A stretch of 32,498 nucleotides of DNA from an uncultured Hyphomicrobiales bacterium (GTDB taxonomy: Bacteria; Pseudomonadota; Alphaproteobacteria; Rhizobiales; Xanthobacteraceae). The stretch lies in NCBI GenBank assembly GCA_903885555.1, contig CAISIV010000235.1, positions 1 to 32,498 on the forward strand, given 5' to 3'. This document shows positions 7,318 through 32,498 of this stretch, piece after piece; within the stretch, counting starts at the first letter, position 1; each line of letters begins with the position of its first letter. The notes under the pieces were generated by a model. That model did not search any database. It saw nothing but the letters and a program-made list of their open reading frames with translations, and had not been told where the DNA came from. Position numbers and translations under genes: made by a program.

Positions 7318-7366
7318 GCGCATGATCTGGTCCGAAAACCGGTACCCACTTTTCGGGATCATGCGC
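7318..7366. repeat. Palindromic REP-like element, Hyphomicrobiales type
   Basis: Perfect 10-bp outer arms GCGCATGATC / GATCATGCGC (7318-7327, 7357-7366) and inner arms CCGAAAA / TTTTCGG (7332-7338, 7350-7356) form a nested cruciform-like hairpin. This sequence is very like a repeat scattered in many copies between genes of Bradyrhizobium and relatives (recognised from memory, not searched). It sits in the divergent intergenic region upstream of both the YiiX-like and flavin oxidase genes. The rest of 7246-7520 shows only the small hairpin at 7260-7278. Confidence 0.75.
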
Positions 7367-22599: not shown

Positions 22600-22684
<85 letters not shown>

Positions 22685-31261: not shown

Positions 31262-32239
31262 CTAGAGTTTCAACTTGAACAGTTTGATCGCATTATCGCG
31301 GCCGATCTTCTTTCGGTCGGCCTCGCTGATCTCGGCTGTGTCGAACCACTGCGAACCCTGGCCGATATCTTCGAACGGCCAGTCGATCGAAAACATCACA
31401 CGATCTGAGCCTACTTCGGTCATCGCGCCAACCATCGACGGCGTATAGAAATTGCCCGACGTCGTGAGATGGAAGTTGTTGCGGAAATAATGGCCCACGC
31501 CGTGCTTGGCGGGATAGCGGTGCGGTTCCTTCATCCAGCCGTTGCGGCCGTCGATGCGCCACAACATGGCTGGAATGCCTTCGCCAAGATGGCCGAGCAG
31601 GATTTGCAGCTTCGGGCATTCATCGAACAGGCCGCTGCCGATCAGGCGCAGGGCATGCACCGCGGTCTCGGCCGCGAACGCCCAGTTCGGTCCGAGCATC
31701 CAGTTGTGGCCTTCATACATTTTCGTCCAGCCGGGCAGCGGATTGCGCGGGTGCAGATAGAAGGGCACGTCGAGCGCTTCGACCGTTTTCCAGAACGGCT
31801 TGTATTGCGGCAGGTCGTAATAGGTGACGTTGTCGGGCGAACCGATATTCGAAAATCCGTTGACCAGTGCACCGACCATGCCGAGGTCTTTGACGCAGCG
31901 CGTCAGTTCCGCGGCCGCGGCGTCGGGATCCTGCATTGGCAAAGCGGCAAATCCGGCGAAGCGAGACGGGCGCTTGCGCATGTTGTCGGCGAGTACGTCG
32001 TTTGCTTGCCTGGCGATAGCGATCGCTTCTTCGGTGTCGTGGATTGCCTGGATCGCCGGTGCATTGAGCGAGAGGATCATCATCTCGACGTCGTGCTTGT
32101 CCATCTCCTTCAGGCGCGTGTCCTGGATATCGATCAGGCGATGTTCGAGGTCCTGCCAGACGTGACCGCCAAATACTTTTGAATCGCCGAGCGTCGGTTG
32201 AATAGCGAAGTGTTCTTCGAGCGCGATCTTGCCTTGCAT
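31262..32239 (-). CDS. Gamma-resorcylate decarboxylase-like amidohydrolase
   Basis: A 325-residue protein of the ACMSD/amidohydrolase-2 superfamily, started at the ATG at 32239 after GGGGGAACAC. The N-terminus MQGKIALEEHFAIQPTL and the segments RLIDIQDTRLKEMD, MILSLNAPAIQAI, PFYLHPRNPLPGW, ILLGHLGEGIP and VMFSIDWPFED correspond closely to rhizobial gamma-resorcylate (2,6-dihydroxybenzoate) decarboxylases. Metal ligands expected in that family are present: Glu8, His10, His163, Asp286, with His217 nearby in the active site. It would reversibly decarboxylate a dihydroxybenzoate to resorcinol in the cytoplasm; a related hydroxybenzoate is equally possible. There are no resorcinol hydroxylase genes next to it. 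It lies just before the tRNA-Ala fragment that marks a possible island end. Confidence 0.82.
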   Translation of the reverse strand: MQGKIALEEHFAIQPTLGDSKVFGGHVWQDLEHRLIDIQDTRLKEMDKHDVEMMILSLNAPAIQAIHDTEEAIAIARQANDVLADNMRKRPSRFAGFAALPMQDPDAAAAELTRCVKDLGMVGALVNGFSNIGSPDNVTYYDLPQYKPFWKTVEALDVPFYLHPRNPLPGWTKMYEGHNWMLGPNWAFAAETAVHALRLIGSGLFDECPKLQILLGHLGEGIPAMLWRIDGRNGWMKEPHRYPAKHGVGHYFRNNFHLTTSGNFYTPSMVGAMTEVGSDRVMFSIDWPFEDIGQGSQWFDTAEISEADRKKIGRDNAIKLFKLKL

Positions 32240-32303
32240 GTGTTCCCCCGGTTTTGGCGGCATCATGCAACGGGGCGCCGAACATTGTCAGCAGGCGGGC
32301 AAC

Positions 32304-32334
32304 AAAAAAGCCGCCCCAGCGGGGCGGCTTTTTT
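32304..32334. terminator. Strong bidirectional terminator near the tRNA-Ala 3' end
   Basis: A 14-bp perfect stem, AAAAAAGCCGCCCC (32304-32317) with GGGGCGGCTTTTTT (32321-32334), closes a three-base loop AGC. Poly-A and poly-T flanks make it functional in both directions. It lies about 25 nt past the CCA end of the tRNA-Ala remnant and is most likely the original terminator of that tRNA gene. A smaller hairpin GCTCGC-GAA-GCGAGC (32339-32353) lies between. Confidence 0.9.
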
Positions 32335-32359: not shown

Positions 32360-32404
32360 TGGTGGAGCCAAGCGGGATCGAACCGCTGACCTCCTGCATG
32401 CCAT
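32360..32404 (-). pseudogene. 3' fragment of tRNA-Ala(GGC): putative attachment site
   Basis: Read on the minus strand, 45 nt match the 3' part of an alanine tRNA: anticodon loop ATGGCAT (anticodon GGC), 3' anticodon stem GCAGG, variable loop, intact T-arm AGCGG-TTCGATC-CCGCT, acceptor strand TGGCTCC, discriminator A and CCA. The D-arm, 5' acceptor strand and 5' anticodon stem are missing; upstream the sequence becomes unrelated and much lower in GC. Breakage exactly at the anticodon loop is typical of tyrosine-recombinase attachment sites. The 5' side faces right, so the element and the intact tRNA would lie beyond the window's right end. Confidence 0.75.
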
Positions 32405-32498
32405 ATTGGGGGTTTACGATTCTGGGGGATTCGCCTACATTCCCAGCGCGTTAAAAATCGCGAAATTCCGGGACAAAGTGTTCTCTGACATTCCTATA
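32405..32498. other. Lower-GC sequence past the tRNA-Ala fragment
   Basis: The last 94 nt are visibly poorer in GC (just under half) than the rest of the window and contain no recognisable gene. TGGGGG occurs twice 16 nt apart (32407 and 32423), which might be part of a recombinase arm-site array, but this is too short to judge. It could be the first bases of an integrated element. Confidence 0.4.

Follow-up and report, generated by a model that had tools for sequence, protein, structure and literature searches.

A tRNA-Ala(GGC) fragment at a contig end of an uncultured Hyphomicrobiales bacterium: a probable attachment site of a tyrosine-recombinase element

Background

Genomic islands that integrate into tRNA genes have been collected in the Islander catalogue, where, in the part of the paper used here, the signature of such an island consists of a displaced 3' fragment of the tDNA, an intact cognate tRNA gene, and a crossover in the anticodon loop (PMC4383910). 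The table in that part gives 3760 islands with a 3' fragment, and anticodon-centred sites make up 2083 of 3919 candidates (PMC4383910). A search for literature on tRNA-Ala(GGC) integrase genomic islands in Bradyrhizobium found none; within the portion of PMC11476347 that was available, the relevant matches are one reference and a tRNA-gene table only.

This study concerns a stretch of 32,498 nucleotides (the window), which is contig C235 of a draft assembly of 320 contigs and 4.27 Mb with completeness 95.37 and contamination 4.7; position 32498 is the end of the contig. An earlier note, made from the letters of the window, had placed a probable boundary of an integrative element in a tRNA-Ala(GGC) gene at this end. 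The features on which the analysis turns are collected in Table 1.

Table 1. Features at the right end of the window (contig C235), in order of position
Feature	Position	Strand	Evidence
Amidohydrolase (PF04909), flanks tRNA-Ala(GGC) in many relatives	31262..32266	-	Profile and locus comparison
GC-rich hairpin with A- and T-runs, native terminator-like	32304..32334	-	Self inverse match
Ten native bases after CCA, identical in C46	32350..32359	-	With the 45 nt, the 55-nt overlap
3' fragment of tRNA-Ala(GGC), displaced, attR-like core	32360..32404	-	45/45 against the intact tRNA in C46:3758-3833
Low-GC tail, presumed end of an integrated element	32405..32498	.	GC 0.468

Results

The tRNA fragment and its native flank

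The fragment corresponds, with 0 mismatches, to positions 32-76 of tRNA-Ala(GGC): it begins where the anticodon loop begins and runs to the CCA. The 5' half is missing, the 31 bases preceding the fragment matching the real 5' half at 11/31 positions only, and ARAGORN calls no tRNA at the fragment. The claim of the earlier note that 45 nt of tRNA-Ala(GGC) stand on the minus strand without a 5' half is thus confirmed to the base. When up to 3 mismatches were allowed, two copies of the 45 nt were found in the own genome, both of them exact, and the reversed control pattern gave none, so the match is beyond chance. An A-T pair in the T-stem is present in both tRNA-Ala(GGC) copies of this genome, and a full-length 100% match to its intact tRNA-Ala(GGC) occurs in 4 of 43 genus genomes; together these speak for the fragment belonging to this organism. 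The sole complete tRNA of the window is a tRNA-Leu(CAG) at 22600-22684, which is also the sole Rfam match in the window.

The native terminator that had been described on the 3' side of the fragment corresponds to the terminator-like hairpin of Table 1, which the consensus terminator scan does not list, perhaps because its T-run pairs with its A-run. The amidohydrolase gene follows.

The partner contig

The assembly has one intact tRNA-Ala(GGC), which lies on contig C46 next to a gene for a FYDLN_acid protein (PF09538). The frames before the FYDLN_acid gene are, we assume, part of rpsA and then cmk and aroA; after it come the tRNA and, 10 bases past the CCA, the end of the contig. These last 10 bases equal the window's own flank, and the overlap between C46 and the window is 55 nt in all. 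The same assembly therefore has the second copy that the earlier note had expected, an intact tRNA-Ala(GGC) with these 45 nt as its 3' end, but on a separate contig. The placement of C46 on the opposite side of the tRNA and in the right orientation comes solely from synteny with relatives.

The shared 10 bases suggest one of three things: an empty site that coexists with the occupied one, an att repeat that extends beyond the CCA, or an artefactual tail on the window. If C46 leads into the element, the 10 bases past the CCA must belong to the att core; if it leads straight to the window's flank, as in the relatives, then either an empty site coexists with an occupied one or the tail is artefactual. 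An explanation of the 55 nt as the k=55 of a de Bruijn assembler was rejected, as four other contig pairs overlap by 24, 44, 47, and 76 nt; further contig overlaps of 111-118 nt involve a repeat-like stretch. Since overlap lengths vary within the assembly, 55 nt proves nothing on k, and assembler behaviour cannot decide between an occupied site and a mixed one. Elsewhere in the window, 46 nt (7318-7363) are common to the start of contig C31 (L115); the first 24-33 nt of C31 are also found in three other contigs, and the sequence resembles a dispersed repeat.

The site in relatives

The locus comparison covered 39 relatives, 23 of them from the same genus. The closest relatives include entries labelled Pseudolabrys sp. 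and other Rhizobiales. Seventeen loci other than the window's own have the amidohydrolase (L009-L025, one per same-genus genome). An intact tRNA-Ala(GGC) lies beside it in 14 of the 17, and in 13 the FYDLN_acid gene, the intact tRNA, and the amidohydrolase are adjacent, so that the comparison proposed in the earlier note finds both flanks meeting at an intact tRNA, with no interruption. In the fourteenth locus with the tRNA (L015) the contig begins 193 nt before the tRNA and so does not extend as far as the FYDLN_acid gene. One genome (G017, locus L018) has a tRNA fragment only beside the amidohydrolase; another (G004, L022) has the tRNA about 6 kb from it, with ABC-transporter-like frames between and no integrase apparent in the ORF list of the interval; in a third (G006, L025) the tRNA is on another contig than the amidohydrolase. 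In the remaining 6 genomes of the 23 from the genus, an intact tRNA stands next to the FYDLN_acid gene, and the amidohydrolase is absent from the match (L026-L028, L030, L032, L033); the amidohydrolase side therefore varies within the genus.

A relative of the amidohydrolase is encoded at 23 loci in genome_contigs, and the comparison took in the 10 that are 77% or more identical. The intact tRNA is present in all 10 and the FYDLN_acid gene in 9 of them, with the proviso that six are, judged by their length, contigs already covered from G002, G011, G012, G013, G023, and G049. Gene order in the relatives places C235 and C46 on either side of a single ancestral site, from which the window departs at the anticodon loop.

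Similar junctions in other sequences

When the whole tRNA was compared with the 43 genus genomes, three matches had position 32 of the tRNA as their start, namely those in the window, in G017:C27, and in G008:C32. The last of these (G008:C32:6063-6092) was dropped as a site because it lies inside a 1769-aa reading frame. The fragment in G017:C27 is at the same chromosomal site, with the amidohydrolase flank, and starts at the same tRNA position as that of the window; it differs in being 87% identical with a 2-base gap, and the sequence beyond it is unlike the window's tail. A reading frame that begins 128 nt from the G017 fragment encodes the Arm-DNA-bind_3 and SAM-like domains of an integrase; it has these N-terminal domains only and no catalytic domain. 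The FYDLN_acid gene of G017 is cut off by the end of another contig.

In IMG/VR, 17 stretches with the tRNA-Ala 3' pattern were compared for the 5' half, which is present at 27-31 of 31 bases in 13 of the 17 and absent in two (L169 and L174); L175 and L182 start too near the contig end to judge. In L169 (IMGVR_UViG_3300036790_000818) a complete Arm-DNA-bind_3 integrase (PF13356 and PF00589) starts 208 nt from the fragment and points away from it. L169 resembles the window in having a 3' tRNA fragment without a 5' half, 93% identical over 45 nt, and foreign DNA on the 5' side. In contrast to the window, its identity to the tRNA extends into the anticodon stem by some 4 bases more, and its 5' sequence has no similarity to the window's tail; its breakpoint is near that of the window and need not be equal to it. 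L174 (IMGVR_UViG_3300036790_000178), which has the same data-set number as L169, also has a tRNA-Ala(GGC)-type fragment without a 5' half; on its element side a crude motif flagged no frame in the short stretch.

The tail beyond the fragment

The 94-nt tail has a GC content of 0.468. Stretches of this length elsewhere in the window average 0.627, and those as GC-poor as the tail make up 1.2% of sliding and 4 of 344 non-overlapping ones. The sharp fall in GC that had been noted 5' of the fragment is borne out by these figures, and the tail is presumably element DNA. These 94 nt are what the window contains of the presumed element, and its cargo is not visible from them. The predicted fold of the tail is nothing unusual (z -0.26).

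The tail has no match in the phage and plasmid collections searched or in the other 42 genus genomes. In a sample of 396 other genomes of the order, chance-level matches were found in three (G030, G095, and G170): those in G095 and G170 are taken as chance as both are inside long reading frames, and so is that in G030, a short repeat after a frame. The frame preceding this repeat is, we assume, tgt-like. Neither genome_contigs nor viral_contigs contains an exact copy of a 27-nt piece of the tail, and the window's terminal 20-mer occurs in 0 of 70 other readable contigs of the assembly (87 of 320 sampled, long ones to 20 kb only). Of 88 contigs, 17 are masked, each of them under 3 kb long, and a small contig of the element could be one of these.

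Integrases in the assembly

There are five matches to PF00589 in the assembly, four of them over the cut-off, and none is linkable to the tail. The assembly has no match to the L169 integrase, compared with 35 of 43 genus genomes that have one. Contig C50 (G000, L078) is a 3-kb contig with a lower GC (0.559) and a tyrosine integrase at 136-1308. It was considered as the continuation of the tail, as the integrase starts at base 136 and runs in the right direction, but it has no overlap with the tail. The C50 integrase has matches in 11 of 42 other genus genomes, all of them distant (24-34% identity), and C50 may not belong to the bin or may come from a different element. Contig C314 (G000, L077), with an integrase cut at the contig start and a RadC gene (PF04002), was set aside as a continuation because it likewise has no overlap with the tail; a further frame on it, which by its look we take to be the end of a conjugation protein, has no PHROGs match. 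The integrase-family frame on C38, beside a lipoamide-dehydrogenase-like frame, is presumably the host XerC. As to the integrase that the earlier note proposed to look for beside either copy of the tRNA, none is joined to the tail, C50 and C314 are not linkable to it, and the contig stops 94 nt past the fragment.

Discussion

The contig end is very probably the attachment-site junction of a tyrosine-recombinase element (a prophage, ICE, or island) in tRNA-Ala(GGC). The recombinase would be of the tyrosine class, and its strand exchange, at the anticodon loop, would join the chromosomal tRNA to a 3' half carried by the element. The chromosome's own 3' half would then stay by the terminator and the amidohydrolase, where it is seen as the fragment in the window, and the 3' copy brought by the element would restore a whole tRNA at the opposite end, next to the FYDLN_acid gene. 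The element is supported by the fragment itself and the exact position of its breakpoint, by the intact partner and the undisturbed order in relatives, and by two integrase-linked breakpoints equal or nearly equal to this one. Counting against it are that no integrase or element gene lies within the window, that its 94 nt of presumed element have no match above chance level, and that C46 has 10 bases past the CCA, which an occupied attL shows only if the att core exceeds the CCA.

An assembly artefact, in which C46 joins the window's flank directly and a chimeric or foreign read end has become attached at a conserved tRNA as the tail, would agree with the exactness of the 55-nt overlap, its 10 native bases after the CCA included. 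Tail and overlap together measure 149 nt, which would be about one short read, and three other contig ends of the assembly extend past an overlap, by 14, 43, and 247 nt. Such an artefact is nonetheless unlikely, given that the breakpoint is exactly where the anticodon loop starts, a base that it shares with the G017 fragment at this locus, and that the tail is GC-poor and not tRNA-like. G017 also provides the model for an old scar, in which the element is gone or decayed, the fragment is a relic, and remnant DNA lies beyond: that locus has decayed at the same site, with a mutated fragment and an integrase frame without its catalytic domain. The fragment of the window, however, is identical to the genome's own intact tRNA at 45/45 positions and so probably recent, which makes a scar very improbable here. 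A duplication of the 3' part of the tRNA, or a transposon cutting here by chance, would account for the window having no visible integrase; it is scarcely credible when the breakpoint is a known integrase crossover subsite, going by the part of the Islander paper used (PMC4383910), and integrase genes stand beside like fragments in G017 and L169.

Under the element reading, then, the element would lie between C235 and C46. The earlier note had put it to the right of the fragment, before an intact tRNA on the same strand; site and polarity stand, through synteny, and the element itself is neither in the window nor among the contigs of the assembly that were searched. The note's idea of an unusual system in the island is a conjecture. 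With less confidence, some cells in the sample may carry the empty site, a possibility that the earlier note did not raise. It is a tentative suggestion, somewhat less probable than its opposite, that occupied and empty forms of the site coexist, with an active element whose unmatched attachment arm belongs to an undescribed lineage, and a mixed or active population is doubtful to about the same degree.

The site where a mobile element would enter this genus is fixed exactly by these comparisons, and is a target for finding the element by sequencing. The arrangement is a textbook one, and knowledge of tRNA-gene integration is unchanged by it. The difference from the islands in Islander, as described in the part of that paper used here, is that the stretch between the fragment and the intact tRNA, for which the criteria ask a length of 2-200 kb and a tyrosine integrase gene, is not assembled (PMC4383910). 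This assembly shares with them the displaced 3' fragment, an intact cognate tRNA, here on another contig, and a probable anticodon-loop crossover, and the catalogue's criterion, again as given in that part, of a 3' tDNA fragment split at a known crossover subsite has its counterpart here in positions 32-76, split in the anticodon loop (PMC4383910).
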